Assembly: GCF_010233585.1 (NCBI RefSeq)
Contig: NZ_CP045997.1
Span: 3,001,779 to 3,065,778 of the forward strand
Direction: 5' to 3'
DNA from: Spirosoma endbachense
GTDB lineage: Bacteria; Bacteroidota; Bacteroidia; Cytophagales; Spirosomataceae
DNA length: 64,000 nt
The position numbers and the translations under genes were made by a program. Under the pieces are notes generated by a model. That model was not told where the DNA came from. It searched no databases and was given only the letters and a program-made list of their open reading frames with translations. Shown piece by piece: positions 42-44,040 of the stretch (positions are counted from its first letter, which is position 1; each line of letters opens with the position of its first letter).

Positions 42-138
42 AAACGCCCAAATTTATGAGCAGATACATACGTCTTCGTCTCAGGCAGGAGCTTATTCAT
101 GAACGTTTTCTCGTCTCACTGGGGAGCCTTTTTTGAGA
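42..138 (+). repeat. Dispersed hairpin repeat, copy A (doubled hairpin)
   Basis: Starts with AAACGCCC at 42-49. It then has CGTCTCA at 77-83 followed by a GGAG loop and a degenerate closing arm (TGAAC), and a second CGTCTCA at 112-118 closed by TGAGA at 134-138. This is the only copy with two hairpins in tandem. The box at 22-38 (TATTTTCTAGCCGTCC) resembles the tail of copy H, so an earlier copy may end here. It lies upstream of the RibD-like gene. Confidence 0.7.
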
Positions 139-343
139 AAGCCGTTGAGAAGGGTACCCAGTAAAGCAACTGGCTTTACCTCATGGAAGAGAGGTTTATG
201 CGAAATCAAACCTCATCTAATTCTAACGGCAAACAGTTGGCTCACTTACCAGTAAAATGGCATAATAGCCCCCTTAATTTGTCGCATTCCGCTAGGGCTC
301 CTTTACTAAAGCAGTCCTAGCTTTGTGACCCTCAATCAGCAAG

Positions 344-910
344 ATGAGAAAGCTAGTTTTATTCGCCCACATCTCCCTAGATGGCTTTGCCGCTGACATC
401 CACGGCGGCCTGGGTTTCTTATCCTACAATCAGGAGCTCCAACAATTCGCTGATGAACTGGTAAAAACCGTAGGCGTGCCGGTTTACGGCAAGCATACCT
501 ATCAGTTAATGGCAGGCTACTGGCCTACCGTTTTAGCCGACCCAACGGCCAGCCAACACGAACTTGACCATGCACGATGGGTGGAGCAGATTCCCAAAAT
601 CGTTTTTTCCACTACCCTGCCCAGTGCGGACTGGCTTAACACCAGGTTGATCAAAGACAACGTGGTCGATGAGATCACCCAACTCAAACAGCAACCCGGC
701 AAAGACCTGGTGATTTTCGGCAGCCCTGGCCTAGCCAAAAGTTTCATGCATCTGGGCCTGATTGATGAATATAAATTAATGCTGCATCCGGTCCTACTCG
801 GGGAAGGGATCCGTCTATTTGCCAGCTCATCACCCATGAATAAGTTGAGGTTATTAGAGTCAAAAACGCTCGGTTCGGGGGTAGTGACACTGCATTACGC
901 GGCTCAATAA
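344..910 (+). CDS. Dihydrofolate reductase family protein (RibD C-terminal domain)
   Basis: A 188-residue protein of the RibD C-terminal/DHFR-like fold, close in pattern to the small stand-alone YwjB/YyaP group. Visible landmarks are SLDGFAAD near residues 11-18, the VYGKHTY segment near 47 that corresponds to the 'GR.TY' nucleotide-contact loop, and the C-terminal block IFGSPGLAKSF...HPVLLGEG typical of the family. Such proteins bind NADPH, but the substrate of the stand-alone forms is usually unknown, so a role in folate or riboflavin synthesis should not be assumed. The gene stands alone, with a repeat copy about 200 bases upstream and an NTF2-like gene 79 bases downstream. The ATG start gives the complete fold. 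Confidence 0.85.
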   Translation: MRKLVLFAHISLDGFAADIHGGLGFLSYNQELQQFADELVKTVGVPVYGKHTYQLMAGYWPTVLADPTASQHELDHARWVEQIPKIVFSTTLPSADWLNTRLIKDNVVDEITQLKQQPGKDLVIFGSPGLAKSFMHLGLIDEYKLMLHPVLLGEGIRLFASSSPMNKLRLLESKTLGSGVVTLHYAAQ

Positions 911-989
911 CCAGCTAGAAAAGGCCCCTTAAGCTGTACCCATTGTCTGTTCATCACTCATCGCATTTTACTCCATTCATTGATCCCTT

Positions 990-1388
990 ATGAGCGCAGT
1001 TGAGAATAAACACCTGATGGAAACGATTTTCTCTGAATTAGCAACGGGCAATGATCAGCCCTTTCTGGAGGCGATGGCCGACGATATGCAATGGAGGTGG
1101 ATGGGAAGTGGTCAATGGGCAAAGACCTTTCAGGGAAAACAGGCCGTAGTGAATGAGCTATGGGGGTCGGTGAAGACGACTTTACGTCCCCCTTATAAGG
1201 CGACTGCTAGGCGTATTATAGCGGAAGGGGAGTACGTGGTGGTCGAAGCAATTGGTGATAACATGACGCCTGATGGCAAGCTGTATAACAATCGCTACTG
1301 CTGGGTGTGCCGTATGGGAGAGGGTAAACTACGAGCGATCAATGAGTATATGGATACGGAACTGGTGACCATGACTTTTCAATCGTAG
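990..1388 (+). CDS. SnoaL/NTF2-like family protein
   Basis: A 132-residue protein with the cone-shaped NTF2-like (SnoaL) pattern: an N-terminal helix with a TIFSELATGN segment, then DDMQWRWMGSGQWAKTFQG, then strands ending in NRYCWVCRMGEGKLRAINEYMDTELV. The last segment is the usual 'F.I.dGKI...EY.D' strand of the ketosteroid isomerase-like group. No secretion signal is present, so it should be cytoplasmic. These folds serve as isomerases, hydrolases or binding proteins, and the sequence does not settle which. It probably continues from the reductase gene 79 bases upstream in the same direction; no terminator is visible between them. Confidence 0.8.
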   Translation: MSAVENKHLMETIFSELATGNDQPFLEAMADDMQWRWMGSGQWAKTFQGKQAVVNELWGSVKTTLRPPYKATARRIIAEGEYVVVEAIGDNMTPDGKLYNNRYCWVCRMGEGKLRAINEYMDTELVTMTFQS

Positions 1389-1544
1389 CCGTTGACTGAA
1401 CCTCACATGAACTGAGTCAAAAATCAAGAAATGGAGCGTTTTTGGATAATTTGCAAAACAGATTTACCAAACCAAAAATATCCATTCCTGTCTCGTATTC
1501 CTGTTCAACTATAATAATAGGTCTACTGATTTATTGGATCTTTA

Positions 1545-1946
1545 TTAGAGATGGTGACGGAGAAATCCCAATAGGGCTACAAAGAGGACAGAGCCAATCC
1601 AAATCAACCAGAAAACGATTCTTTTTCGTTTGGTTACCTCAAAACAGTATAATGGAGTTAAGCCGGTTTGTCTATCGACTTTTAAGTAATTGAAAAGCAG
1701 ATAGTATAAAGTCCCAAAGATAGTTCCCGTTAAAAAGTTGACGTGGTACTTCTGTATTCCACCCGTAGTGAGCTTCGACTGAATAAGCCAGAGGATTGCC
1801 CAGTAGCCTCCTACTAGCATACAAAAGAATCCCAAACTCAATTGCAGGAGTGTACTAAACCAGGGCAGGTTATTATTTCTGCCAATTTTTTGGTCCCGCT
1901 GGTGGAGTTGGAAAAAGGTATAGAAATACTGGTATAGAAATTCCAT
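1545..1946 (-). CDS. Small membrane protein of unknown function
   Basis: A 133-residue protein I do not recognise. It has three hydrophobic segments, near residues 30-55 (LLQLSLGFFCMLVGGYWAILWLI), 70-88 (FLTGTIFGTLYYLLF) and 110-130 (IVFWLIWIGSVLFVALLGFL), separated by short basic loops, which suggests an inner-membrane protein. The minus-strand ATG has hydrophobic periodicity downstream, whereas the overlapping plus-strand frame at 1442-1693 looks like a shadow. Neighbours run in the opposite direction, so it is probably a single-gene unit. It could be an orphan accessory gene. Confidence 0.55.
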   Translation of the reverse strand: MEFLYQYFYTFFQLHQRDQKIGRNNNLPWFSTLLQLSLGFFCMLVGGYWAILWLIQSKLTTGGIQKYHVNFLTGTIFGTLYYLLFNYLKVDRQTGLTPLYCFEVTKRKRIVFWLIWIGSVLFVALLGFLRHHL

Positions 1947-2122
1947 CGGTTGACATTGCCCAGTTAGATAAATGCACCGAACTTAGATTTATCATATAAA
2001 ATGATGGAAGGTGAAAGCAAGTCAGTATGCCTCAAATTTTAAGGATGAGGATTCAATACTAGCCAACCTTAAAGCCTAAGGCATGGATAACCTTGAAACA
2101 TCATTGTTACAGAATCATATAA

Positions 2123-2141
2123 TGAGGAGGGTATTTTGAGA
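2123..2141 (+). repeat. Dispersed hairpin repeat, partial copy B
   Basis: TGAGGAGGGTATTTTGAGA matches positions 15540-15558 of copy G at 18 of 19 bases, but the CGTCTCA arm is missing here. The 500-base gap between 1946 and 2450 otherwise shows no gene; it should contain the promoters of the divergent neighbours. Confidence 0.5.
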
Positions 2142-2449
2142 TTCAGCAGGTAGTCATTCTGTCGTCTTCTCTATAATCGGAGTTCTCGTTCCAAGGGGCA
2201 GCCGTATTGAAGCCGCCAATCAGCTTTTTGTATAATTTAACTTATTGCCGCTTAATGCTGACGACTTATAGCCTCTAAAATGCGCCGAGTTTTGCCTGGT
2301 GGAAAAAGCGAATTAGGTGTAAATGGCTAGGGCACTAATGATATTGGAGGAAATTAAGCGATTTATCTTGTCGGTAAACAGCAATTCAGCTGGCGGCAAG
2401 ATTTCCGCTTTGTTGTAAATTGCAGCACTTACCCGCTTAATTCGCGCTC

Positions 2450-3394
2450 ATGACCACTACCGGGCTCCACGCTCTTTATCAGGAGCTCTCGCTTTGCACC
2501 GGCCTCGACCTGCATCAACTGCTACCTCAGGATATTCAGCACGAGGTCGGCCAAGTCAATGCGTTCCACTTGGCGGACCTCTGGCGGTCGACCCAACTAC
2601 AGCCCGATACGCCCTACCCCATCCCCTCTTTTTACAAAATCAGTTTAGTGAGCACCCCCAGCCGGGCCGAGTGCGCCGACAAAACCATCGAGGTTGCCCC
2701 CGATGCGTTGGTGTTTTTAACGCCCAAGGTGTCATTTCAGTGGCGACCCACCCAGGCACAGCAAGGCCAATTCTGCATCTTCACGGCCGAGTTTCTCCTA
2801 CCCATCCTTGGGGGACTCACGCCTGGCGAAATGCCCTTGTTCAAGGAGGACGGGTATCTAGTATTTCAACTAACACCGACCCAAAAGGCGCGGGCTGCGG
2901 CTATTTTCGTCCAGATCCATGAAGAACTGGCCTCCGATTATGCCCACAAATACGACCTGCTACGAGCCTATGTGGTAGAACTACTGCACATGGGTCAGAA
3001 GCAGCAGGCCAACACGCTGCGTCAACCCGCCCACTCAGCCAAGGCCCGGCTCACCGCGCGCTTCGTGGAATTGCTAGAGCGGCAGTTTCCGCTCACTACC
3101 CCCCAGCAGCGCGTGCCGCTGCGTACGGCGAAAGATTTTGCCGCTCGCTTAGCCGTGCATGTTAATCACTTGAATAAGGTGCTTAAGGAACGCACCGGCC
3201 AAACGACTTCTGAGCTGATCGGCGGGCGACTCGTGCAGGAAGCCAAAGTGCTGCTACGCCAGTCCGACTGGACGCTTTGGGAAATTGCGGACAGTCTGGG
3301 TTTTGTGGACGTGGCTCATTTTTCGCACTTTTTCCGCCGCTACGTCAGTGTCAGTCCGGGTACATTCCGGACAGGGGAAGCCGTCGTGATTTGA
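2450..3394 (+). CDS. AraC family transcriptional regulator
   Basis: A 314-residue regulator. The N-terminal 200 residues form an AraC-type sensing domain without a recognisable metal site. The C-terminal part, from about residue 220, carries the double helix-turn-helix: FAARLAVHVNHLNKVLKERT as the first HTH and WTLWEIADSLGFVDVAHFSHFF followed by RRYVSVSPGTFR as the second, which is the AraC/XylS signature. The ATG at 2450 gives the expected length. The SDR gene begins only about 90 bases after its stop, in the same direction, so the regulator probably controls or is co-transcribed with that oxidoreductase. It resembles the regulator at 35525-36436, where NHLNK and EAKVLL are shared. Confidence 0.9.
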   Translation: MTTTGLHALYQELSLCTGLDLHQLLPQDIQHEVGQVNAFHLADLWRSTQLQPDTPYPIPSFYKISLVSTPSRAECADKTIEVAPDALVFLTPKVSFQWRPTQAQQGQFCIFTAEFLLPILGGLTPGEMPLFKEDGYLVFQLTPTQKARAAAIFVQIHEELASDYAHKYDLLRAYVVELLHMGQKQQANTLRQPAHSAKARLTARFVELLERQFPLTTPQQRVPLRTAKDFAARLAVHVNHLNKVLKERTGQTTSELIGGRLVQEAKVLLRQSDWTLWEIADSLGFVDVAHFSHFFRRYVSVSPGTFRTGEAVVI

Positions 3395-3486
3395 TTCCTA
3401 CAAAAAGTTGATTGGCGGCTACAATACGGCTGCCCCCTACGCAGGGGACCTTTGTGGTGTTGACTACAACCCCAATCGTTTCACCT

Positions 3487-4622: not shown

Positions 4623-5378
4623 ATGAAAACAGCTACGCTCTTGCTACTGTCCACACTGATTACGTTTAACACATTTTCGCAAAATACCTCCAAACATGCC
4701 ACACGCCTGTATTTGTTTGTTCACGGAGCCTGGGGCGGGGGCTGGGAGTATAAACAAGTCGATTCCATCCTCACCGCTCAAGGGGCTAAGGTCTATCATC
4801 CTACTCTGACGGGGCTGGGTGAACGGGTACATCTGGCCAGCCCCCAGATCAGCTTACGCACTCATATCACCGACATTGTCAATGTCATCCGTTTTGAGAA
4901 TCTGCACAATATTATCCTGGTTGGACATAGTTATGGAGGAATGGTTATTTCGGGGGTCGCCGATCAAGTTCCGGACAGGATCAAGCAGCTGATTTATGTA
5001 GATGCATTTGTGCCCAACAACGGCGAAAGTTTATTCAGGGCAATCGGGCATACTGGCGAAGCATCAACAAAACCTCACACCAAAGATGGCTTTGTGAAGT
5101 ACTTCTTTGGCCCAACTAAACCGTTCCCCCCAACCGACGTACCACAACCGTTGAAGACCTTTACGGAGCCACTGACCCTGAGCAATCCTGCCGTCCTGAA
5201 AATCCCGACCTGGTATATTTTGATGACCAAAAACGGGGACAGGCAGAAAGCGGGGTTTGCCTCCTCAGCCCAACGAGCCCAACAACGTGGGTGGCCAATT
5301 TTGACCTTAGAGGGGGGGCATTATGCCATGCGAGACCAACCCGCCAACCTAGTACGAGTGCTGGAAAAATGTAAGTAA
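4623..5378 (+). CDS. Secreted alpha/beta hydrolase (esterase-like)
   Basis: A 251-residue alpha/beta hydrolase with an N-terminal signal peptide (about 19 residues ending FNTFSQ). The strand-loop FVHGAWGGGWEY supplies the oxyanion region, VGHSYGGMV holds the nucleophile serine, and EGGHYAMRDQP near the C-terminus holds the catalytic histidine. The arrangement GLGERVHL...LRTHITDI is typical of the salicylate esterase/hydroxynitrile lyase-like group. It should act in the periplasm on a small ester. An AraC regulator starts 33 bases downstream on the same strand, so the two probably form a regulated pair. Confidence 0.85.
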   Translation: MKTATLLLLSTLITFNTFSQNTSKHATRLYLFVHGAWGGGWEYKQVDSILTAQGAKVYHPTLTGLGERVHLASPQISLRTHITDIVNVIRFENLHNIILVGHSYGGMVISGVADQVPDRIKQLIYVDAFVPNNGESLFRAIGHTGEASTKPHTKDGFVKYFFGPTKPFPPTDVPQPLKTFTEPLTLSNPAVLKIPTWYILMTKNGDRQKAGFASSAQRAQQRGWPILTLEGGHYAMRDQPANLVRVLEKCK

Positions 5379-5411
5379 CTTTATCCACCACCATCGCACC
5401 TCCATAAAGCC

Positions 5412-6230
5412 ATGATTTTCCGTAAAGTACCACCCTGTCCAGCCTTGCAGTCCTTTGTAAGATACTATCTACTGGTTAACCTGTACGGCGATTTTAATCA
5501 CCTAACGCCCTATCCGGCCCGAGCCGAGCAGGCGCTTGTCTTTTTTGCCCGTGGCTATATCCAAGCCTACGATCCCTTGACGCAAACAGCCTCAAAAATT
5601 GCCGCTACTGCCTTATTTGGTCAACAGGTATCCCGGCTTGATTTTCAGGTATTTGCCCAGACTGAGTACCTCATGCTGATGATCGTATTTCAACCTGGGG
5701 CCATGTATCGGTTCCTGGGGTTCTCCAGTCAGGAGTTGACACGCGAATTTTGTGACGCCGAATCGGTGATTAGCTCAGAGTTACAATCCGTCAATGATCA
5801 GATTGCCAATGCCCGCGATTATGCCCAAATGATTCATCGGGCCGAAACCTATTTGCTGGGCAAGCTGAGCAGGCTAAAAATTGATTTACATCCAATCGAC
5901 CGAATTGGGCAATTGTTGCTGCACAATCCCAGCCCTTTTTCGTTGGATTGGCTGGCGGGCCAAGCGAATTTGAGCCCCCGCCAATTTGAACGGAAATTCA
6001 CGGATCGGATCGGCATCGGCCCCAAACTGTACAGCCGCATTAGCCGCTTTTTTCTGACCTTAGACTACAAAGAAAGGCATCCCAATGTTGACTGGCTTAC
6101 CATCGCTCTCCACTTTGGCTATACGGATTACTATCATTTAGTCAAAGATTTCAAGCAGTTTGCCCATGTTAGGCCAAACCTGATGCTGCACGAATATAGT
6201 CAACGGCCCGAAATCATTGTCAACTTATAG
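5412..6230 (+). CDS. AraC family transcriptional regulator
   Basis: A 272-residue regulator with an N-terminal sensing domain of the DUF6597 type (CPALQSFVRYYLLVN, FQPGAMYRFLGFS) and a C-terminal AraC helix-turn-helix (LDWLAGQANLSPRQFERKF and HFGYTDYYHLVKDFKQF). The same architecture and many of the same residues recur in the regulator at 42446-43294, so the two are paralogues. It lies 33 bases after the secreted esterase gene on the same strand and is its likely regulator. The ATG at 5412 gives the full N-terminal domain. Confidence 0.9.
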   Translation: MIFRKVPPCPALQSFVRYYLLVNLYGDFNHLTPYPARAEQALVFFARGYIQAYDPLTQTASKIAATALFGQQVSRLDFQVFAQTEYLMLMIVFQPGAMYRFLGFSSQELTREFCDAESVISSELQSVNDQIANARDYAQMIHRAETYLLGKLSRLKIDLHPIDRIGQLLLHNPSPFSLDWLAGQANLSPRQFERKFTDRIGIGPKLYSRISRFFLTLDYKERHPNVDWLTIALHFGYTDYYHLVKDFKQFAHVRPNLMLHEYSQRPEIIVNL

Positions 6231-6590
6231 CTTGCCCAATTCACTTGGCCTTTAAGTGGAGGCAATCAAGGTTGGGTAAATCTTCTGAATCGCATCAACG
6301 AATGACTACATTTCTTTTTGCTTGGCCAACTAGCTCCTGAGTTGAACCAGGGTGACTAAGCCTGGTCCGAGCCACAAAACGACCGACTCAAAATGGGTTT
6401 CTGAGCTTCCGTTTGCGGGTTGCCCTCGACACGAGGAACGCCCCGCAGCCGGGCCGCTGGAGCGGTCAGGTTTTGGTCGGTGGGGCAGTTTGTGTCTGAT
6501 AGGGCAAACGTCCCGATAAGTGTAGTTGAAGCGATTAGCATACCCGTATTCGTGTAACGAGTCAGATGCCCTTTTATCTTGTCAAGAGCT
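6231..6590. other. Gene-free gap
   Basis: About 360 bases between the AraC gene and the carboxylesterase. A short minus-strand frame (6356-6541) lies here but has no recognisable protein features. No repeat copy or terminator was seen. Confidence 0.4.
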
Positions 6591-8240
6591 ATGTTCTATC
6601 GATTAATTAACCTGCTGCTTATGAGTACACCAAGCACGATGCTTTGGTTAACGTCTAGTTTATTCGTCTGCACACAATTTATTCAGATCAAAAGTAACCT
6701 AAGCGCCCCTCCCCGAGTGACGATTGATGCAGGCCCGTTAGAGGGCTTCGTTGATTCAACAAATGTGTTCATGTTTCAGGGTATCCCATATGCTGCTCCA
6801 CCGGTCGGTCAACGAAGATGGCAGCCCCCCCAACCACCAGCTCCCTGGACAGGGATTCGGATGGCCACCGAATACGGCCCTTCCTGTCCCCAGTCTACCA
6901 GGGAATGGGGGCCCACTAGTGAAGACTGCCTGTATCTGAATGTGTACACAACAGTCTTGGCTAAAGCGAAAAAACAGGCTTCTCGTCCTGTGATGGTGTG
7001 GATTCATGGAGGAGGTTATCTTGGGGGCAGTGCAAGGGGGTATGATGGTCGTACGTTGGCCCGTAAGGGAGTCGTCGTGGTCACATTGAATTACCGATTA
7101 GGCCCACTCGGCTACCTGGCTCACCCTGCATTGGCAGCGGAGTCTGCCCAAGGCAGTACCGGAAACTATGGGCTCCTGGATCAGATTGCCGCTCTTCAAT
7201 GGGTGCAACGAAATATTGTCCAGTTCGGAGGGAATCCCCATAACGTTACCGTCTTTGGCGAATCAGCGGGTGGATTCGCCGTTGGTGCTCTGCTGGCCAC
7301 TCCTTTAGCCAACGGGCTATTTCAACGGGCTATTCTGCAAAGCGGAACTGGTATTCATAATGGTATCCATAGGCTTGAGACTGCCCGCACTCTCGCGCTG
7401 TCAGGGGCTATGACACTGGGTATTGACCGGCAGGATACGTCAGCCGCACGTGCGCTACGGGCTATCGATGCTCAACGGATTATCGATGCTTACCCTTGGC
7501 CTAAACGAGGCCCATTACGAAGTTATCAGGTCTGGTTTGGCCCGGTAATCGACGGTTGGGCATTACCGCTGCCTCTGGATCAAGCTATTAGTCGGGGCCG
7601 ATGGAATCAAGTCCCTATTCTGGTCGGCAGTACGGCTGCCGAAGGTATTCGATTTCAACCTCAGCCAGCCGCTCAATCATTACCGGCCTATTATGACCTA
7701 TTGGGTAAGGGCGACCTTGGGGATACATCGGGTAAGCTGGCTCAGTTGTATGCCGTTGCTGATACGAGTGAACTCTTAGTTCGGTCGCAGGAAATAGTAG
7801 GCGATCTGGGCTTTGGCGCACCGACTCGTGCCTTAGCTCGACTGGTAACAAAGGCCGGAGGGCGTGCTTACGTCTATTATTTCACTCGACAATCCGTTGA
7901 TGATTTGGGCCATCAACTCCCAGCCGTACACACGTCTGAATTGCCGTTCGTATTTGGGGTAGTACCGAATCAATGGACTGCATTTGCGAACAATGGGCAG
8001 ACCGCTTACGATATAATCCTGGCTGATGCGATGAGTGACTATTGGATCGCGTTTGCCAGGGATGGTAATCCCAATGGGACGACTACTAAAGTAAAATGGC
8101 CCCATTGGCCTGTTTATAACTTAATGACCAACGCGTACCAAGACTTGGGTGCCCGGATACACTCAGGGCAGCAATTGCGGACAAACTACTACGATGCCCT
8201 CGACCAGTTGGCTCGCCAGCAAGGAGAAATTCGACCATGA
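6591..8240 (+). CDS. Type B carboxylesterase/lipase
   Basis: A carboxylesterase of about 549 residues. It has the type B signatures EDCLYLNVYT and FGESAGGF (nucleophile serine), the oxyanion loop HGGGY, and the late HTSELPFVFG segment with the catalytic histidine. An N-terminal hydrophobic stretch after the start suggests export. The frame opens with a TTG at 6579; ATG 6591 or ATG 6621 are more plausible starts, and both leave the fold intact. The enzyme should hydrolyse carboxylic esters, with substrate unknown. A repeat copy begins directly after its stop and separates it from the VOC gene. Confidence 0.9.
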   Translation: MFYRLINLLLMSTPSTMLWLTSSLFVCTQFIQIKSNLSAPPRVTIDAGPLEGFVDSTNVFMFQGIPYAAPPVGQRRWQPPQPPAPWTGIRMATEYGPSCPQSTREWGPTSEDCLYLNVYTTVLAKAKKQASRPVMVWIHGGGYLGGSARGYDGRTLARKGVVVVTLNYRLGPLGYLAHPALAAESAQGSTGNYGLLDQIAALQWVQRNIVQFGGNPHNVTVFGESAGGFAVGALLATPLANGLFQRAILQSGTGIHNGIHRLETARTLALSGAMTLGIDRQDTSAARALRAIDAQRIIDAYPWPKRGPLRSYQVWFGPVIDGWALPLPLDQAISRGRWNQVPILVGSTAAEGIRFQPQPAAQSLPAYYDLLGKGDLGDTSGKLAQLYAVADTSELLVRSQEIVGDLGFGAPTRALARLVTKAGGRAYVYYFTRQSVDDLGHQLPAVHTSELPFVFGVVPNQWTAFANNGQTAYDIILADAMSDYWIAFARDGNPNGTTTKVKWPHWPVYNLMTNAYQDLGARIHSGQQLRTNYYDALDQLARQQGEIRP

Positions 8241-8248: not shown

Positions 8249-8330
8249 TAAAAGGAGCGTATTTTGAGATTGAGCCAAAGATCGTTTACCTGTCAATCAA
8301 CAATCTATTTTTCGTACTTTACTTACCAAA
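8249..8330 (+). repeat. Dispersed hairpin repeat, copy C (5' part missing)
   Basis: AAAGGAGCGTATTTTGAGAT at 8251-8270 matches the loop and closing arm of the repeat, but the CGTCTCA arm is absent; the carboxylesterase stop lies 10 bases upstream. The downstream box TCGTACTTTACTTACCAAAG at about 8312-8331 is shared with copies E and F. Confidence 0.6.
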
Positions 8331-10964: not shown

Positions 10965-11071
10965 AATGCGCGGACCTCCATTACCATATGAGGTTATTTC
11001 TGCCAAGCTTAGATTGATGAGACTTCTCTTACATCAAATCGTATTAAAGACATTTTCGACCAATCTCAGTT

Positions 11072-11136
11072 AACGCCCATTTCTTGAAGCAGAGATATGA
11101 AGCTTCTATCGTCTCAGTTGGGGGTGTTTTTATAGA
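11072..11136 (+). repeat. Dispersed hairpin repeat, copy D
   Basis: Starts AACGCCC at 11072, continues with TTCTTGAAGC and a GAAGCTTC arm, then CGTCTCA at 11110-11116 and a GGGGGTGTTTTTAT loop. The closing TGAGA has drifted to TAGAT. The first 20 bases match copy L closely. Confidence 0.75.
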
Positions 11137-11277
11137 TACCCTGGTTATTTTAATCACGAGTTAGTCGATTGGCTGTTTCTGCTTTCAATGCCAGTTTATA
11201 AGTCACTTGACAGGTTATATTTACCGTCGAGTGATAGAGTATCCGACAAAGTTTGAACCACTTCACTACGTACACTG

Positions 11278-11784: not shown

Positions 11785-11979
11785 CTTAAACTGGCAACTA
11801 GCAGTAGTTATCAAATTGGGCAACCAAGAACGGGCAAGTAAGGGAGCCTGCCAGACGTTTACTTTTTTGTCTCGATCGGGAGCGTTTTTAGGAGATACGG
11901 TGCTATTTGATAGCTTTTGATTCCAGTGGGTAAGCTTGGCTAAATACAACCCAGAACGCAGTTGGCGGGTCCTTAAAAT

Positions 11980-12318
11980 ATGAAAACTTCTTTAGTAGTA
12001 CTTACCCTTACTCTCAGTGCACTGGCTTGTCGCCAACCCTCCGCTCCAGCCGATTGCGACTGCCAGTCAACAAGCTATTCGTTATTGATTGAAAAAACGG
12101 GCGTTTACAACAAAGGGGGTGTAAGTACCATTAATGCCAAAACCGGCCAAGTTGATGGTTTCTATACATTGAGTTGCAATCCTGACTTTATCACCGGGAA
12201 AGCGGCCGACCGCGACACCATTCTTTTGACTGGTCGAGCCCGCTCGAATTGCTACAAAGGGGAATCACTAATTGCCCTACCAAGTCTACTAGAGTTAATC
12301 ACTGTACGTAAAAAGTGA
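11980..12318 (+). CDS. Small lipoprotein of unknown function
   Basis: A 112-residue protein with a lipoprotein signal: a charged N-terminus, a hydrophobic stretch and the lipobox LSALAC, so Cys17 would be lipidated. The mature part is rich in Ser and Thr, with six further cysteines (DCDCQS, LSCNP, RSNCYKG) that may form disulphides in the periplasm. I do not recognise a domain. It stands alone and converges with the Gfo/Idh gene on the other strand, with 37 bases between them. Confidence 0.65.
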   Translation: MKTSLVVLTLTLSALACRQPSAPADCDCQSTSYSLLIEKTGVYNKGGVSTINAKTGQVDGFYTLSCNPDFITGKAADRDTILLTGRARSNCYKGESLIALPSLLELITVRKK

Positions 12319-12355
12319 GCATTTTTTGAGAATGTAATTTTAACATCTGTCAAAC

Positions 12356-13459
12356 TCAACCAGTAACATACGGCCCGTTAAAAAGAGCGGAAATTTCAAT
12401 CCTATTCAATAATTCATGCAGAAACGCAGCATCCTCAAATGAAGGAGCAGTCCTGGTGTTATTTCTAATATCTGCTGCCAGTCGTTTGTAAATCTGGGCT
12501 ACATTGCCGATAACCGGATTTCCAGTTAAACCTTGGTACATTTCAGCAGGCACAGTTAAAGGTTTTAATTCAGTTTCGTCACCCCTCGCCCCATGAATGG
12601 TTAACTGAGCCTGCTGGCCATGCCCTAGTGGAGCGGTTACCTGGATATCCCCTTTGCTTCCATTAATCTCCCATAAAAAGTTGGTGGCCCTGGAAATCCC
12701 ACCTCTATAATGAACGGTGACGGCAGCACCGCTTTGCAAGGTTCCTATCACCATAATCTGGTCTTCGCTAGTTTTGGGTTTTATTGCCCCTGTGTCTTTT
12801 ATGTTAACATTTTTAAAATTGCTGCTCATGCGTGCAGTAAGCTGATTGAATCCGCCTAAAACTTTGGTTAGACCCGCCAGGGTGTGCCCCAGTGGAATCG
12901 TTAGCATAGTAGCGCCATTTTCTTTTTCATACAGATAATAATTAGCAATGACGGTTTCGTCGCCCCAACTGCCGCCGGAGCCGATGAGCGTAGTAGACAA
13001 AACTTTTCCTACATAGCCCTCATTTATAAGCTGTGCTAAATAAAGTAGCTCTGGTGCAACGACCATCTGAGTACCTACTACCGCAATTACATTTTTACTT
13101 TTGGCCAAAGCGGCTAACGTTTTGGTTTCTTCTAACCCGTTTCCAAGCGGATGTTCGCAGTAAACGTGTTTTCCAGCTTCGAGCGCAGCTTTTACCAATT
13201 CAAAATGATAAGCAACTTTCACCGTGATCACCACCAGGTCAATGTCATTGGATTCTACCAGCATCTGCGCATTTTCAAAGGCGTTGGGAATTTGGAATGC
13301 TGCGGCAGCTTTCTTTGCGCTTTCATGAGTGGAATTGGCTACGCCAATAATGTCAAATTTATTCGAGAGCAGTTTTAAAGCCGGGATATGTGATACGGAT
13401 GCCCACTGACTATCTGGATTAAGGCCTATTAAGCCTACTTTTATTTTATCAGATTCCAT
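12356..13459 (-). CDS. Gfo/Idh/MocA family oxidoreductase, Gal80-like
   Basis: A protein of about 367 residues. The N-terminal Rossmann domain begins KVGLIGLNPDSQWASVSHIPAL. The C-terminal half has GHTLAGLTKVLGGFNQL and LQSGAAVTVHYRGG, as in the Gal80-like branch. The usual EKP motif reads EHP (YCEHPLG), so the lysine important for catalysis in the dehydrogenases is replaced; Gal80-type proteins also lack it. It may therefore bind NAD(P) as a sensor, or act with altered chemistry. I set the start at ATG 13459, where homology begins; the open frame continues upstream to 13588 but overlaps the promoter region of the divergent HxlR gene. Confidence 0.85.
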   Translation of the reverse strand: MESDKIKVGLIGLNPDSQWASVSHIPALKLLSNKFDIIGVANSTHESAKKAAAAFQIPNAFENAQMLVESNDIDLVVITVKVAYHFELVKAALEAGKHVYCEHPLGNGLEETKTLAALAKSKNVIAVVGTQMVVAPELLYLAQLINEGYVGKVLSTTLIGSGGSWGDETVIANYYLYEKENGATMLTIPLGHTLAGLTKVLGGFNQLTARMSSNFKNVNIKDTGAIKPKTSEDQIMVIGTLQSGAAVTVHYRGGISRATNFLWEINGSKGDIQVTAPLGHGQQAQLTIHGARGDETELKPLTVPAEMYQGLTGNPVIGNVAQIYKRLAADIRNNTRTAPSFEDAAFLHELLNRIEISALFNGPYVTG

Positions 13460-13528
13460 GTATGTGTTTTTCAAATGCGTTGCAATACTATACAGGCCAC
13501 AATATTTTTGCGTAGTAGGTATCCCAAT

Positions 13529-13541
13529 GTATGATACATAC
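13529..13541. promoter_or_regulatory. Candidate operator between Gfo/Idh and HxlR genes
   Basis: GTATGATACATAC is a perfect palindrome (GTATG, ATA spacer, CATAC) in the 94-base divergent intergenic region, 13 bases before the HxlR start. Position and symmetry suit binding by the adjacent HxlR-type regulator. This is inference from layout only. Confidence 0.4.
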
Positions 13542-13553
13542 AATTTTGTAAGT

Positions 13554-13931
13554 ATGACAAAGCTTAAGGCAAGCTCGACCAATAGCATTAACCGTAATTT
13601 TCTCTCAGATTGTAATTTGACCTATGCTGTTCAACTGATCGGCGGTAGATGGAAATTACTTATACTAATGCGCTTGGGAAACGAGAAAAGGCGATTTGGA
13701 GAGCTGAAAAAAGTTATTCCAAACATTACAGAACGAATGCTGACGCTTCAGCTTCGTGAACTTGAACGGGACGGGGTAATCACAAGGACTGTTTACCCGG
13801 AAGTGCCACCGCGAGTTGAATATGAATTGACAGAGATTGGTAAGGAACTAATACCGGCTTGCCTGCTACTTGATGGATGGGGAGAAAAGCACAAGCATAT
13901 ACAGTTTGGAAAGCAGTCCACTTTACTGTAA
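13554..13931 (+). CDS. HxlR family transcriptional regulator
   Basis: A winged helix-turn-helix regulator of about 125 residues with the HxlR landmarks: CNLTYAVQLIGGRWKLLILMRL with the conserved N-terminal cysteine, RFGELKKVIPNITERMLTLQLRELERDG, and the wing PRVEYELTEIGKEL. HxlR proteins act as dimers that respond to quinones, aldehydes or thiol oxidation, often through that cysteine. I prefer ATG 13554, since the upstream extension to 13458 is unrelated to the family. It is divergent from the Gfo/Idh gene, which it probably controls. A 22-bp perfect inverted repeat begins at its stop codon. Confidence 0.9.
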   Translation: MTKLKASSTNSINRNFLSDCNLTYAVQLIGGRWKLLILMRLGNEKRRFGELKKVIPNITERMLTLQLRELERDGVITRTVYPEVPPRVEYELTEIGKELIPACLLLDGWGEKHKHIQFGKQSTLL

Positions 13932-13975
13932 GTATGCCAATGATAATAGTTGACAACTATTATCATTGGCATACT
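13931..13975. terminator. Perfect inverted repeat at the HxlR stop
   Basis: Arms 13931-13952 and 13954-13975 are perfectly complementary over 22 bases with a one-base centre (a tight loop in practice). The left arm begins at the last base of the stop codon or just after it. It is AT-rich and lacks a T tract. Repeat copy E begins six bases later. Confidence 0.7.
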
Positions 13976-13980
13976 AGTAC

Positions 13981-14104
13981 ACGCCCCATTACTGAAGGCG
14001 AAACACGAACGCTCATTCGTCTCAGGTAGGAGGGTATTTTTTGAATTAAATAAATGTCCCTTGATTTGTAACAAGGTAGTGACGTTCATACTTTACTTGC
14101 CAAA
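13981..14104 (+). repeat. Dispersed hairpin repeat, copy E
   Basis: ACGCCCC at 13981, CTGAAGGC, CGTCTCA at 14018-14024, a GGTAGGAGGGTATTTT loop, then TTGAATT in place of TGAGA. The tail box CATACTTTACTTGCCAAAAC at about 14087-14106 matches copies C and F. It sits between convergent genes. Confidence 0.75.
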
Positions 14105-14427: not shown

Positions 14428-14543
14428 GATATGTGAGTCTAAAGATTTGTAATGCGTATGATCGTTAACAAGGGTACGACGTTAGTTATACGTTTTGTCA
14501 TTCATTCAAGACACGGGATAGAGACAATAGATTGTATCCCTTG

Positions 14544-14668
14544 AAACGCAACAGTAAAGAAGCCAATGCAGGAAGCTTCTAGCGCTCAAGAAGGAGCATT
14601 TTATGGAATTAAGGCAAACGGCCTTTGTCTGTTACAGATACCATCCAATCTTCGTACTTTACTTCCCA
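14544..14668 (+). repeat. Dispersed hairpin repeat, copy F (degenerate)
   Basis: AACGCA at about 14544, an AAGAAGCC...GGAAGCTTC arm that pairs well, GCGCTCAAG in place of CGTCTCA, AAGGAGCATTTTATGGA as loop, and the tail box TCGTACTTTACTTCCCAAAC at about 14651-14670. Confidence 0.6.
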
Positions 14669-15490
14669 AACTCCGAAACGCAATGGAAATGGATTGCTTT
14701 TATAAGTCACTAGCCGGATGAATGCATTCAGTCCAGTAGGCTATGATCAGCAAACGGAATGTCAACGACGCTTAGCGTCAGTTTCATCGTGTTGTTTGGA
14801 AAAAGGAATACGTCATCTGAATTGTGGTAATCAGGGGCTCAAGTCATCACTGACGAACCGTTTTTCCCTTTTCGAGTGCCGCGAGCAGTTGATGGTTTGA
14901 TTGCTCATTGCTGGCTTGCCAGTCGCTTATCTTATGCTGTAGAGAAGGGCAATTCATTGCGAACTGCTGGTGGACTTTAAAGTTTTACTCGATAGCTACG
15001 TGGATCATCAAAGCTGGGATTAAGTAAAAACTTGACCGACAGCTTAGAACGCAAGACAGGGACGGAGAAGACCCTAGGATTAGCTAGGATTAGCTAGGTA
15101 GCAGACCGATAACTAACTTATCAGCAGTTACGTTCGTAACATTCTGAAAATAAATTATTTACTACATACAAGCTACAAAAATCAGTGGCCTACTAGTAGC
15201 ACTCTTGAAGTTGGATCAGAGATAAACCGTTCGTATGTGGAGGACTGCTATTGATTGGCACTTTGGTTATGTATGAGTGGACAATCTTCTCGTACAGAAA
15301 TGATTATGAATTTAAGACTCTATATATTAACTGTTTATGGCCCTTCTGCCGTATCGTACTTTTCTTCTTAAAGCACGAAAATCGGTACTTGATTGGCCTT
15401 TCCCCCCTTGGAACTTACTAGTTGGGCGTTTTGTGATGGATTTATTTTCGTATTTACTAGAATCGTACGAAAGGTAGACTGTGTCACATT

Positions 15491-15605
15491 AAACGCCCCA
15501 ATTAAGAAGCAGGCACATAAATATTGTTTCGTCTCACTTTGAGGAGGGTATTCTGAGACGGATCTACACGAGCAGTTAGCCTGAAGCTCGTACTTTAGCT
15601 AGTAA
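15491..15605 (+). repeat. Dispersed hairpin repeat, copy G
   Basis: AAACGCCCC at 15491-15499, AAGAAGC, then CGTCTCA at 15530-15536 closed by TGAGACG at 15554-15560, a perfect 7-bp stem. The loop holds GAGGAGGG. The tail CTCGTACTTTAGCTAG is at about 15587-15602. Confidence 0.8.
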
Positions 15606-18093: not shown

Positions 18094-18190
18094 TTACCGT
18101 CCGATTTATGAGGAGACTATGCCCCCAATCGACCACTTTATAGTTAGTCTGTTAGAGGTCAATTTAGTTCGTTTCAGGGTCTTGCTTTTT

Positions 18191-18295
18191 CCCCATTTCT
18201 TGAAGCAGATGTATGTAAGTTTTATCGTCTCAGATAGGAGCGTTTATTGAGAAGGTGTCTTTTTAAATACCAGGCTTATAGTTTACTAGCTGTCC
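18191..18295 (+). repeat. Dispersed hairpin repeat, copy H
   Basis: CCCATTTCTTGAAGC at 18192-18206, CGTCTCA at 18226-18232 closed by TGAGA at 18248-18252, loop GATAGGAGCGTTTAT, and tail AGTTTACTAGCTGTCC at about 18280-18295. The tail matches the first bases of the window (22-38). Confidence 0.8.
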
Positions 18296-35124: not shown

Positions 35125-35230
35125 CGAAGCTAATCCTGCCTTTCCAGGAATAATCTGAATCTGTTTGCAAACGCAATATATTATCGACAATCCCCGGACC
35201 TATGCCATCGCTTATAATCTTTCTAGCTGA

Positions 35231-35284
35231 GCACCCTATTTAAACAGAATCTGCTTCGTCTCAGGCGGGAGCGTTATTATGAGA
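35231..35284 (+). repeat. Dispersed hairpin repeat, copy I
   Basis: CACCCTATTTAAACAGA (like CGCCCTATTTAGGGAACAGA in copy M), then CGTCTCA at 35257-35263 closed by TGAGA at 35280-35284 around the loop GGCGGGAGCGTTATTA. The rest of the 35125-35524 gap shows no gene. Confidence 0.75.
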
Positions 35285-35524
35285 ATTTTTAACTCACAGT
35301 TATAAGAGCAAGTTGAGTCATTAATCTGTCAACAGATTTGGATAGCACAGTCGGTTCGCTTCCAATGGGCGCTCCAACTGCTGGCGCCTTACCCTACGAC
35401 GGGTAGGTGGCTTTCCACTGGGCTGGCACACAAGGCCTACATCGCTTTTTGAATGGGTGACCAAGATCTTTTTCTTCGATCGTTTGCAAGAGATTAGTAA
35501 TTTAGAGGCAAAGAGTAGCTCAAC

Positions 35525-38319: not shown

Positions 38320-38511
38320 ACAAGTGCTTACACTCTAACTTATTTCCATTTAGCTTAGGCCCTGTGTTAGATGCACCTACTATATCCATGGTTGCCTCCG
38401 GCGTACGGCTATTTTGCAGGGAAGCAGCGGCTGAATGTCTGAGTCGTCGTATTTGGCTGATACTTTTTCTCGCAACTAGCTGACTTCATCGATTTATTTT
38501 ACCGTCTCCTG

Positions 38512-38567
38512 AAATGCCCTTTTTTTGAAGTAGTCCTTTCGTCTCACTTAGAAGGATTTTGCGAGAC
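38512..38567 (+). repeat. Dispersed hairpin repeat, copy J
   Basis: AAATGCCCTTTTTTTGAAG at 38513-38530, CGTCTCA at 38540-38546 closed by CGAGAC at 38562-38567, around CTTAGAAGGATTTTG. It lies between two convergent genes. A second CGTCTC at about 38503 may be part of a doubled copy. Confidence 0.65.
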
Positions 38568-38619
38568 CAAGTCAGGAGAGCAAAACACGCCGTAGTAACG
38601 ACTAGCTATACTTCAATAC

Positions 38620-39937: not shown

Positions 39938-41335
39938 TCAGTGATTGGTAAAGCTCAGTAAGATGTACTTAGCCAAGAGTTCGTCAGCAGGCGACTGTTG
40001 ATTAAAATTGCCCCCCGTGATCACCGTCACCATGTTTTGCTCAGGCCAGATGTAGATCCGTTGGCCACCATTGCCTTGGGCGGCAAACCCATCGAAACGA
40101 CGCCCGCCCGCATTTAAATACTTTAACCACCACAGATACCCATAATTTACATTTTGTACCACGGAGTGTTTGGTTAACGAGGTGGTAATCCAGTCCTGTG
40201 AAATGAGTTGCTTGCCTTGCCACTGGCCCTTATTTAAATATAAAAGGCCAAACTTAGCCATATCCCGGGGACGCAACGAAAGCTGACAGTAGGTTTCAGC
40301 ACTCGACGAATCAGGCTGAAAGTGCCAATCAAACTGGGTGATGCCCAAGGGAGCGAATAACGTTTGTTGGGCAAACTCAGGCAGGGATAACTTGGCCTGC
40401 TTTTCAACGATACGGCCTACCGTAATCGGATTACCTGAGCAATACATCCCTTTGCCTCCAGGCACATCACTCATGGGCAAATCCAGCGTATATTTTACCC
40501 AGTCCGCTGAATAATCCATCTGGGTTTCAGTACCTACTGCGTGCGCATTGGTAATGTCACAGTCTAAACCACTTTGGTTAGCCAATAAGTGGGCAATGGT
40601 AATGGTTCGTTTGATATCCGAGTTGTTGCTAACCTGGTATTCGGGGAAGAAGGGTAAGACCGGTTCATGCACACTTTTGATGAGCCCTTTATCAATGGCG
40701 ATACCGGTTAAAGCGGAAATAAAGCTTTTGGTGGCTGAGCGAAGTTGATGGAGACGATGTTGGCTGTATTCATAAAAATACTCTTCAACCACCAACCGAC
40801 CATCTTTAATAATCAAAACAGAATGAATATTGGGATAAGTGCCCTTAACAATTTGTTGAATCATTGTCGTTAGCAGGGTAGAATCTAAGCCCGATTGTTG
40901 AAGACCGCCCACTCTCAACCCGTCTTGGTCAGCAATAGGTGGGTGATAGCTGTAGGATTGGTCTGATTGCCCTATCCGGGGATACCACATTTGGATGGGG
41001 AACCGCAGCGTATCACTGAGTTGGCGGAATTGTTGTTGGTTGACCCAATAGGCGATAACTTTCCCTTGTGGGTCTCGCTGAAATCGGATGGTATCTTTAC
41101 GTTGATTTCGAAATAGGTCATCGCCAATGGGATACAGGGGGTAGCGACTCTCGGCAATAATCGCATAGAGGAGCGAATCTCGGGGCGAAGCCGCAAGCTT
41201 GAGCGTGGTTCGATTTTGGGATTGGTAAAGTCCCTGGAACTCCTTAAGTTTTTGGTAGGATCGGAAGGAGGGTCGCTGGGCTTGGCAGGTCAGGGCAAGT
41301 ACGAGAAGCAGAGTAAGGAGTAAGCACTTATTCAT
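39938..41335 (-). CDS. Serine hydrolase, beta-lactamase family
   Basis: A 465-residue exported serine hydrolase of the class C beta-lactamase/EstB group (signal peptide of about 19 residues ending LTCQA). The nucleophile motif S-x-x-K is SATKSFISALTGIAID near the middle, the Y-x-(S/N) element is MYCSGNPITVGRIVE, and the late G-G-Q region reads FAAQGNGGQRIYIWP. The N-terminal 130 residues are an extra beta domain with no clear relatives. Such proteins often act as esterases or D-Ala-D-Ala carboxypeptidases rather than as drug resistance enzymes. It stands alone, with repeat copies K and L on its two sides. Confidence 0.88.
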   Translation of the reverse strand: MNKCLLLTLLLVLALTCQAQRPSFRSYQKLKEFQGLYQSQNRTTLKLAASPRDSLLYAIIAESRYPLYPIGDDLFRNQRKDTIRFQRDPQGKVIAYWVNQQQFRQLSDTLRFPIQMWYPRIGQSDQSYSYHPPIADQDGLRVGGLQQSGLDSTLLTTMIQQIVKGTYPNIHSVLIIKDGRLVVEEYFYEYSQHRLHQLRSATKSFISALTGIAIDKGLIKSVHEPVLPFFPEYQVSNNSDIKRTITIAHLLANQSGLDCDITNAHAVGTETQMDYSADWVKYTLDLPMSDVPGGKGMYCSGNPITVGRIVEKQAKLSLPEFAQQTLFAPLGITQFDWHFQPDSSSAETYCQLSLRPRDMAKFGLLYLNKGQWQGKQLISQDWITTSLTKHSVVQNVNYGYLWWLKYLNAGGRRFDGFAAQGNGGQRIYIWPEQNMVTVITGGNFNQQSPADELLAKYILLSFTNH

Positions 41336-41675
41336 AAGGGAGGTACTGAATGATAACTAGCGTTTACCTTGGTTATGGCAAGGACTGTACCAAGGCAGAA
41401 AAATGCCTTTAGCTGCCGCTAAAGCTTTAATTCAAATAGGCCGATGTCCACTGCCGGACAGTACTGTCCGTTTTTAACTGATCAGGCTAGGGTCACCCAA
41501 CCAAGTTGAAGGAGCTGCCAAGTGTGATGCGATTGGCCTAGTAGCTAGTCAGGCAGTTTGCTTTTTCGCTTCGTAGGCGAAGGATCATATAACTATTAAG
41601 AGGGCTTGAGAAGTAGTTAGTCATGAATTCCGTATCCTTGATGCCTCGTCCATCTCTCTATTTGCTGCATTTCAC

Positions 41676-41735
41676 AAAACGCCCATTTCTTGAAGCATAT
41701 GCATGTAGATTCTATCGTCTCAAGTAGGAGCGTTT
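41676..41735 (+). repeat. Dispersed hairpin repeat, copy L
   Basis: AAAACGCCCATTTCTTGAAG at 41676-41695, CGTCTCA at 41716-41722, loop AGTAGGAGCGTTTTTAGG, and a drifted closing arm. The tail CCTACTTTCTAGTTGC is at about 41747-41762. The flanking 41336-41926 gap shows no gene. Confidence 0.75.
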
Positions 41736-41926
41736 TTAGGGGACCTCCCTACTTTCTAGTTGCTAGGCTTCCATACGCGGAAATGACAGCTCAATCTACC
41801 AAAGGACTGCCCGATGGCTGGTGGGCAATAGGCTGCAACACTGCGTTTTTTTACCACTAAGTTCTGCTTCATGTACCGCAGTTTTGTGCCGGTAATCACC
41901 CGATTGTTTCCCCAAACTGCACAACC

Positions 41927-42325: not shown

Positions 42326-42445
42326 ACAGATAATCAGTATCTTTAGTGGCCAAGGTTTTAACGGTCACTGTCTTTTCGAACTCGCTGAAGAAGCCCTTGA
42401 AAAGGCCCGGCATAGCTTTGCTTTCTCTGAACTAACCGCTGAGCG

Positions 42446-43294
42446 ATGATTTGCAAACGGATTAAACCCGCTTCTTTTGTCGGCAACTACGTCAAAGAGT
42501 ATTTGCTGCTCCACATGGCCTTTGACCCAACCGTGGCAGCTCCTGTAAAAGCGTACCCGACCAATCCCGAAGAAGGAATCACGTTTCAGATTCTGGGTAA
42601 CCTGTTTGCGGAAAGTCCGGAATTGAAGAGCGGTAACAAACCGGCCAAGACCTACGTATTTGGTCAACCCGATTCCCGGCAGAATTTTCATTTGCCGCAC
42701 GAGTTTAAGATGGTGCATGTGCGATTCCAGCCGGGTGGCTTGTTTCACCTGGCCCGCATCCCCATGAATGAGCTGGTCCATCAGCAAATTGACGCCGAGG
42801 TCATTTTTGGTTCGGCCATAAAGGAAGTCAACGACCGGCTGGCCAATGCACCCGACTACGAATCCATTCCACCCATTCTGGACACTTTTTTTGCCCGAAA
42901 AATCGCTCAGATAAAACACACTAGTCGCCCCATTGATCAAATTGGACGGTTGATTCTGGCCAATCCACAACGGTTCAACCTGGCCTGGGTAGCCGACCAG
43001 GCCTGCTTAAGCGTTCGCCAGTTTGAAAATCTGTTTGTGCGGCAAATTGGTATCACCCCAAAATACTATGCCCGGATCTGCCGGTTTTATCAGGCCTACG
43101 AATTGAAAGAATTCTATCCTGACCTCGACTGGCTCAGCGTAGCCATCCAGACGGGCTATACCGATTATCAACACTTGGTGAAAGACTTTAAACAGTTTGC
43201 CGGAACAGCTCCGAACGCGCTGATTCGGGAGAGTAACCAAAATCCGGAACGGCGGTTAAAGATTGCCGATACGTTTCATTTCAGGGGGGTATAG
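42446..43294 (+). CDS. AraC family transcriptional regulator
   Basis: A 282-residue regulator of the same type as the one at 5412. It has an N-terminal DUF6597-like domain (KPASFVGNYVKEYLLLH, VRFQPGGLFHLARIP) and a C-terminal AraC domain (LAWVADQACLSVRQFENLFVRQIG, SVAIQTGYTDYQHLVKDFKQF). Both share YTDY..LVKDFKQF. It is flanked by a lipocalin-like gene upstream and a cupin gene 84 bases downstream, all on one strand, and probably regulates one of them. The ATG start at 42446 is consistent with the family. Confidence 0.9.
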   Translation: MICKRIKPASFVGNYVKEYLLLHMAFDPTVAAPVKAYPTNPEEGITFQILGNLFAESPELKSGNKPAKTYVFGQPDSRQNFHLPHEFKMVHVRFQPGGLFHLARIPMNELVHQQIDAEVIFGSAIKEVNDRLANAPDYESIPPILDTFFARKIAQIKHTSRPIDQIGRLILANPQRFNLAWVADQACLSVRQFENLFVRQIGITPKYYARICRFYQAYELKEFYPDLDWLSVAIQTGYTDYQHLVKDFKQFAGTAPNALIRESNQNPERRLKIADTFHFRGV

Positions 43295-43378
43295 AACTGC
43301 GTTTTTTTACCACTGTTATCAGCCACGTGATATGACCTTTGTAGGGATAAATATCAGATCCATCAAACCGTCATCATT

Positions 43379-43843
43379 ATGCAGGATTCATTTGTACTTT
43401 CATCGTTCGAGAGCCGCACTAGCCAACCTTACAATGTCTTAGGCATGGCCGTTTACCTGAAAGTTGCAGGGGCCGATACGGCTGGTCAGCTAAGCGTGTT
43501 CGAGGCTGAATACCAAAAACACGAAGGGCCCCCATTACACGCTCACCAGGTAGATGAAACCTTCTTTATTACCTCAGGCGAATTTTTATTTCAAACCGGC
43601 GACAAACGCTGTATCGTGAAGGCAGGAGATACCCTATTTATCCCCCGGAATATGCCTCACGCGTTTCTGACTATTAGCGAGCGGGGGGCCATGCTCTTCA
43701 TGGTGAATCCAACCGACAAGGTAGAAATACTTTTTGAGCGATTGAGTGCTTATCCCACTCCACCCTCGGTGGATGAAGTAGTAGCCCTACACGAAGAACT
43801 GGGGCTGAAAATTCTGGGGGGGCCTTTGAGCGCTGCGCAGTAA
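43379..43843 (+). CDS. Cupin domain-containing protein
   Basis: A 154-residue single-domain cupin. Motif 1 is GPPLHAHQVDETFFITSGEFLF, with the His-x-His and Glu that usually bind the metal. Motif 2 is AGDTLFIPRNMPHAFLTI, with the third histidine. The metal site is therefore complete, and a dioxygenase or small-molecule-binding role is possible. The C-terminal tail is alpha-helical. The last codons and the stop are inside a 19-bp inverted repeat. It follows the AraC gene on the same strand. Confidence 0.88.
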   Translation: MQDSFVLSSFESRTSQPYNVLGMAVYLKVAGADTAGQLSVFEAEYQKHEGPPLHAHQVDETFFITSGEFLFQTGDKRCIVKAGDTLFIPRNMPHAFLTISERGAMLFMVNPTDKVEILFERLSAYPTPPSVDEVVALHEELGLKILGGPLSAAQ

Positions 43844-43880
43844 AAGCAGGTCTGCTGATCAGCTTTTACTGCGCAGCGCT
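43829..43880 (+). terminator. Inverted repeat that includes the cupin stop
   Basis: Arms 43829-43847 and 43862-43880 (AGCGCTGCGCAGTAAAAGC and its exact complement) are perfect over 19 bases around a 14-base spacer. The stop codon TAA at 43841-43843 lies in the left arm. No T tract follows. Confidence 0.65.
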
Positions 43881-43976
43881 TCTGCTCATTTAATCCGATC
43901 AATCAGAGAGTTTATGGGCCCTTCTTCAGCCCAAAACAACGACTTTAAATTGAATTTACTTCTTGTCTATCAAATA

Positions 43977-44040
43977 ACGCCCTATTTAGGGAACAGACTT
44001 ATGAAAGCCCCTTCGTCTCTTGAAGGAGCATTAAATGAGA
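43977..44040 (+). repeat. Dispersed hairpin repeat, copy M
   Basis: AACGCCCTATTTAGGGAACA at 43977-43996, CGTCTC at 44014-44019 closed by TGAGA at 44036-44040, with loop TTGAAGGAGCATTAAA. It lies just upstream of the transposase fragment. Confidence 0.75.

Follow-up and report, generated by a model that had tools for sequence, protein, structure and literature searches.

A probable integron-like gene-cassette system with attC-like sites in Spirosoma

Integrons are the known bacterial platform for cassette capture and are defined by their integrase, IntI; in the pdif/Xer modules of Acinetobacter plasmids, gene modules are likewise bounded by tyrosine-recombinase sites. Integrons have been reported as rare in Bacteroidetes, where, according to the IntegronFinder 2.0 paper (PMC9024848), earlier work had yielded only integrases without cassettes, followed by one complete integron in Salinibacter ruber. 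Here we analyse a 64,000-nucleotide stretch of the 10.3-Mb genome of Spirosoma endbachense (contig NZ_CP045997.1, positions 3,001,779 to 3,065,778), hereafter the window, and a 76-nt repeat element dispersed along it. We propose that these elements are probably attC-like recombination sites of an integron-like gene-cassette system, and that a Cre-like tyrosine recombinase, here called clade A, is its probable integrase. Sequence comparison provides the evidence: two conserved sites, a polarity of the arrays, crossover points within element cores, a cassette nearly unchanged between species, and clade A genes adjacent to the platform site. A literature search by title and start of abstract, not covering preprints and most subscription papers, returned no description of such a system in Spirosoma.

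To search for the element, we used a covariance model, R1, whose underlying alignment (A2) has 22 copies, five being window copies. The same-genus panel comprised 36 Spirosoma genomes, namely the window genome (G000) and 35 others, and 23 genomes were taken from outside the genus; other G-numbers denote compared genomes and L-numbers compared loci. With the consensus gTCTCAnnAAACGCCCATTTnTTGAAGCAGATnnATGAAnnTTCnATCGTCTCAAGTAGGAGCGTTTTTTGAGA, the element gives nine strong matches in the window (E ≤ 4e-5), all on the plus strand, two weak ones, and 95 matches over the whole of G000 at E ≤ 1. The window has two instances of the pattern AACGCCC-N{0,20}-TTGAAGC, a number that averages 0.01 over 100 shuffles. 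Among the other Spirosoma genomes 29 of 35 contain the element, in up to 77 copies each, and the four complete genomes used below hold 15 to 95; outside the genus it is found in one genome of 23, weakly (E 1e-3). The first-pass annotation of the window had reported at least thirteen copies of a dispersed intergenic repeat that contains an imperfect inverted repeat, and had proposed a covariance-model search and a comparison with Rfam. Its description holds: the copies it listed are where it placed them, R1 finds further copies genome-wide and genus-wide, and the core matches no Rfam family at gathering score within the window. The figure of thirteen stands if half-copies are counted, which keep only the GGAGnnTTT..GAGA end (near 111, 1433, 2126, 8254, 11869 and 12316), and fails for full copies.

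Inspected by eye, the element contains a single core in two mutually inverted forms, TCTCA-nn-AAACGCCCATTTCT-TGAAGC and, reversed, TCTCA-n-AAAACGCTCCTACT-TGAGAC. The pairing of AACGC with GCGTT, which the first-pass annotation had regarded as a competing fold, points to this real symmetry of two inverted half-sites. Exchange points lie within the cores, at TCTCAnnAAA|CGCCCATTTCT-TGAAGC and, inverted, at TCTCAnAAAACG|CTCCTACT-TGAGAC.

These points emerged from a comparison of 81 stretches (1.52 Mb) from G000 and 12 other Spirosoma genomes, which used 258 elements out of 283 R1 matches after duplicate contigs and weak or overlapping matches were dropped by hand. Perfect duplicates of 125-128 bp beside gaps resemble assembly overlaps and were excluded, except for one GGAG boundary (L036/L045). 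The 98 shared segments (at least 88% identity over at least 120 bp) have 188 usable ends, of which 35 fall on elements, 19% versus 3% at random. Classed by eye, 22 of the 35 lie at GGAG|CG and 11 at AAA|CGCCC (GGGCG|TTT when read from the opposite strand), a few of these boundaries being shifted by some bases; the other two are insertion sequence (IS) insertions. One whole cassette of the window (12317-14039, 1,723 bp) recurs in G009 (L214:7957-9679) at 99.1% identity. Because xerD is only 80% identical between the two genomes, we infer that this cassette was shared between the species recently. A second module, of 1,928 bp, occupies two places in G035 (L188 and L177) at 99.8% identity and has both ends at the GGAG core. 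In both module pairs one copy is without the element body at one end. Moreover, in many pairs the element bodies differ next to cassettes of 88-99% identity, an outcome that homologous recombination through the repeat would not give.

Downstream of a tyrosine recombinase gene with two copies in G000 (L100 and L101) is a second conserved site, of about 130 nt; the loci share 95% identity over 1.6 kb, and they diverge at GGGG(C/G)G|TTT. Across the genus this attI-like site consists of GTCTCACAAACTCAGCTAAAATGTGAGATTTTGAnTTTGATTnGTGAGATnnCAATTTGAGACT, some 50 variable bases and then GGGCG|TTT, past which the aligned loci share nothing obvious. It contains several TGAGA boxes and one core, and both the boxes and the GGGCG|TTT core are common to the element. 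A sequence-only model, R2, finds the site in 32 of the 36 Spirosoma genomes, with six occurrences in G000. Polarity was analysed with the full element lists of four complete genomes, G000 (matches to E 1) and G023, G014 and G032 (to E 0.01). An element lies within 20 kb downstream at 23 of their 31 attI-like sites and upstream at 3. At 21 of these 23 sites the first downstream element has the opposite orientation, the other 2 being exceptions; such oppositely oriented cases averaged 1.2 over 300 random placements and never exceeded 5. Neighbouring elements less than 10 kb apart are co-oriented in 140 of 147 cases, and in G023 a run of 21 elements in a single orientation extends from an attI-like site at 4.973 Mb to 5.071 Mb. 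Gene orientation was assessed at 136 of 147 R1 matches: in 87 of 127 cases (p 4e-5) the gene closest to the GGAG side is directed towards the element, as is the one on the other side in 60 of 127. The attI-like site nearest to the window array lies 13 kb upstream, at 2,988,367; two elements with the expected polarity come after it, but those of the window have the opposite one. Because no attI-like site of matching polarity lies nearby, we regard the window array as an orphan array. The window segment 40169-41694 has a 94% identical copy elsewhere in G000, at 3.83 Mb, which stops at the GGCG|TTT of a degenerate attI-like site. At L138, L143 and L150, as judged by eye, attI-like sites follow genes resembling a plasmid relaxase or replication initiator, and the platform may also ride on plasmids.

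All seven full-length clade A recombinase genes have an attI-like site 103-2197 nt downstream, with enzyme and site on the same strand. For clade C the site lies 263-342 nt upstream in 3 of 13 cases, all three divergent, and none of four clade B genes has one within 5 kb. In this survey of enzyme-to-site distances, whose element lists outside G000 are incomplete and partly picked around attI-like sites, the count is 24 downstream and 2 upstream. The full set of enzyme, attI-like site and five elements is present within about 11 kb of G005:C13. Clade A is closest to Cre in sequence and in fold (VIA-align comparison), and its match among solved structures is E 6e-17 to Cre versus 0.18 to IntI4. 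Its R-K-H-R-H-Y residues are invariant, and we take them to be the active site. Homologues also occur in Hymenobacter and one Flavobacterium, where an attI-like profile run over 42 loci gave one match, of E 0.16. R1 gave no match in the Flavobacterium locus L230 or in L257, from a metagenome-assembled genome of Spirosomataceae; the Hymenobacter loci were not searched with it. The clade A homologue at L230 (Flavobacterium sp. SUN052, from another family) is 76% identical, with neither attI-like site nor R1 element in 21 kb, which points to the enzyme gene having been transferred. In front of clade A genes (L100, L101 and L107-L112), an inverted repeat, TTACTCGTGATAA..TTATCACGAGTAA, precedes a promoter-like box, CCTATCTTTG, and is possibly an operator; clade C and the Hymenobacter homologues have other palindromes in the same place.

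We propose that the genes between elements act as cassettes, which site-specific recombination at the element cores would exchange inside a genome and from one genome to another. The attI-like site would serve as a docking platform from which arrays grow with fixed polarity, and the Cre-like clade A enzyme encoded beside it is the probable integrase that would catalyse the exchange. Cassettes may move as circles.

A number of observations weigh against this proposal. At 15 of 18 attI-like loci a recombinase is lacking within 1.5 kb, and the attI-like neighbours of clade A in G030 and G019 are weak matches (45 and 36 bits), G019 having enzyme and site with no element match. Several element-rich genomes, G009 (45 elements), G026 (43), G011 (32), G032 (29) and G001 (24), have no match to clades A-C at E ≤ 1e-10, and genomes with and without the enzyme show only a weak difference in copy number (p 0.03 for any clade, 0.08 for clade A). 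The crossovers fall in 22 of 33 cases on the core of opposite polarity to that of the platform. The boundary counts were classed by eye and are not independent events, as some cases share a cassette, and one perfect 127-bp match may be an assembly overlap. When every gene of at least 100 aa lying between co-oriented elements is counted, the strand bias is small (157 versus 133). Finally, an insertion scan yielded no clean empty site among 128 candidate pairs, mostly tandem repeats or conserved element; its best candidate, L047/L200 (8,670 bp versus one element), has an assembly gap on one side.

It is also conceivable, if unlikely in our judgement, that the exchange is real and another enzyme performs it, be it chromosomal XerC/XerD or a further recombinase or transposase, clade A being no more than a passenger at one end of the system. 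G000 does have XerC/XerD-type genes, and both the element-rich genomes without clades A-C and the use of both cores are in keeping with such an enzyme. That all seven clade A genes sit beside an attI-like site, where Xer genes were not seen, argues for clade A instead, as do the boxes and core that platform and element have in common.

We consider it quite improbable that the arrays are ordinary integrons of the IntI lineage in decay, with the integrase lost and the attC sites drifted. The plan of platform, array and two-core sites is the same, and an IntI-like enzyme below the IntI cut-off exists in many relatives. However, none of the 36 Spirosoma genomes reaches the cut-off of TIGR02249 (IntI), and clade A gives no match to that model at E ≤ 1e-3. 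The canonical attC boxes are similarly missing from 140 dereplicated ungapped copies of the element (GTTRRRY in 1, RYYYAAC in 0), and the recent cassette transfer opposes decay. As to integrase candidates, the best TIGR02249 matches in G000 are of XerC/XerD type, and 8 loci of the IntI-like enzyme have no element within 1.5 kb. This IntI-like tyrosine recombinase, of about 390 aa (L086-L093), is widespread in Spirosoma, and at L087, L088 and L092 an open reading frame (ORF) of about 189 aa upstream of it encodes a putative GIY-YIG-like protein.

Still less probable is a family resembling miniature inverted-repeat transposable elements (MITEs) or repetitive extragenic palindromes (REPs), spread by transposition, with the genes later reshuffled by homologous recombination between copies. 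The element is indeed dispersed, palindromic and intergenic, with 4 of 136 copies reaching into an ORF of at least 100 aa, and it contains the REP-type tetranucleotides GTAG and CGTC. Homologous exchange predicts something other than shared segments that end at cores beside differing element bodies, and neither the polarity of the arrays nor their fixed position relative to the attI-like site is expected of a MITE. The insertion scan gave no empty site of a bare element, though no search aimed at such sites was made.

The first-pass annotation had considered a MITE, a REP-like family or a structured RNA, and had held that the pairing of TCTCA with TGAGA is kept despite changes in the loop. The exchange points inside the element, the exchange of the gene modules between elements, and the head-to-tail arrays beside a second conserved site speak against all three, and the pairing claim found no support from covariation. 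For this inner hairpin, the paired fraction in 22 copies was reached by 108 of 500 shuffles and the covariation score by 118, and the paired fraction in 140 dereplicated copies by 102 of 500, so that the absence of covarying pairs, which it had named as counting against its reading, was largely what we found. The two-core fold does slightly better: 16 of 500 shuffles reach its covariation score with 22 copies, and with 140 copies 72.4% of cells are paired versus 71.3% in shuffles, a small excess reached by 6 of 500; when 2,628 pairs are ranked on corrected mutual information, only 2 of its 18 come among the first 100. In folding, a copy at L010 with a perfect 14-nt outer palindrome gives z -4.7, and a consensus-like sequence z of about -2. 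Base-pair covariation of the element is weak at best and the inner hairpin is unsupported, and therefore we read the inverted repeat as putative protein-binding core sites; its acting form could be a folded single strand or double-stranded cores. A role as structured RNA, as terminator or as leader, to which the inverted repeat, the intergenic position and, by eye, an AGGAG followed by ATG in some copies might point, is hardly credible given the lack of an Rfam match and of inner-hairpin covariation, and would leave the cassette boundaries unexplained.

The sites of the window are collected in Table 1. Pfam matches were obtained for 18 of 20 window ORFs tested and are mainly metabolic and regulatory, including AraC-type and HxlR regulators, a short-chain dehydrogenase/reductase, a carboxylesterase, an oxidoreductase, a PF00144 hydrolase, a cupin and a TonB receptor; there is also a piece of a DDE transposase.

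Table 1. Elements, half-sites and exchanged segments of the window (E values from R1)
Feature	Position	Strand	Remarks
attC-like element	34..105	+	E 1e-8; same 133 bp at G000 10.248 Mb
Second, half element, TCGTCTCA..GGAGCC TTTTTTGAGA	111..139	+	directly after element 34..105
Half-site GGAGCGTTTTT	1433..1443	+	by eye; possible cassette end without element body
Half-site GGAGGGTATTTTGAGAT	2126..2142	+	by eye
Half-site GGAGCGTATTTTGAGAT	8254..8270	+	by eye; 14 nt past ORF end
attC-like element	11063..11138	+	E 8e-23
Half-site GTCTCGATCGGGAGCGTTTTTAGGAGA	11869..11895	+	
Weak R1 match	12262..12333		E 0.52; half-copy near 12316
Whole cassette: oxidoreductase gene 12356-13588 (-) and most of element at 13971	12317..14039	-	both ends at GGAG core
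attC-like element	13971..14046	+	E 2e-18
attC-like element, weaker	14536..14610	+	E 4e-5
attC-like element	15483..15560	+	E 2e-13; 7-bp arms CGTCTCA/TGAGACG
attC-like element	18179..18254	+	E 5e-20; 5' core degenerate
attC-like element, weak or truncated	35221..35285	+	E 0.27; GGAG half good
attC-like element	38504..38568	+	E 9e-10; middle shortened
Segment with PF00144 (beta-lactamase/esterase family) gene 39938-41335 (-)	40169..41694	-	
attC-like element	41669..41744	+	E 3e-25; best copy of the window
attC-like element	43967..44042	+	E 4e-19

Other repeats accompany these features. An IS-like repeat end (CAGGGCTTTCTTATAAAAACGG...) at 44280-44404 has 125 bp identical at several places of G000, beside assembly gaps there. 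The ORF of an AraC-family regulator (2450-3394) is flanked by a 59-nt inverted repeat (2195-2253 and 3378-3436, 80% complementary), and a 1402-aa ORF at 30080-34288 contains eight coding repeats at 30374-31675, seven of them spaced 141-144 bp. Outside the array, a perfect 35-nt inverted repeat at 48328-48416 encloses a 19-nt loop containing TCGTCTCA. Elsewhere in G000, a tandem array with a period of about 204 bp (L055, about 4700-7250) lies beside the elements at 10.245-10.248 Mb.

To our knowledge, Cre-loxP builds no cassette arrays, and the Spirosoma sites differ from it in being longer, asymmetric and multicopy. The modules described here are bounded by tyrosine-recombinase sites, as pdif/Xer modules are, but by a 76-nt double core linked to another enzyme. 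REPs tagged with GTAG/CGTC, which PMC3733652 describes as short intergenic palindromes of 20-40 bp, share that character and these tetranucleotides, whereas our element is 76 nt long and the genes between its copies are exchanged as modules.

The likeness to integrons goes further, with a cassette array split by a palindromic two-core site, a distinct platform, fixed polarity, an enzyme gene at the platform in some genomes, and orphan arrays comparable to clusters of attC sites lacking integron-integrases (CALIN). In contrast to integrons, the recombinase is Cre-like rather than IntI, the attC heptamers are lacking, and the enzyme lies on the strand of its site in clade A and divergent from it in three clade C cases. 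According to PMC2727003, integron recombination takes place only at L'-R', whereas the Spirosoma crossovers use both cores (22 at one, 11 at the other), a difference that tells against our proposal. Because neither IntI nor the attC boxes were found on testing, we do not claim membership among integrons. Whether we are looking at a second, independently evolved kind of integron, with a Cre-like recombinase, its own attI-like and attC-like sites, recombination at either core and large arrays assembled and reshuffled in Spirosoma, is a question on which our opinion is evenly balanced. If the Cre-like enzyme does carry out the exchange, cassette capture arose with a recombinase outside IntI and is not unique to it; tools built on IntI and canonical attC sites would then be expected to miss the system. 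With one enzyme and two short sites, the minimal needs of an integron would become directly testable.

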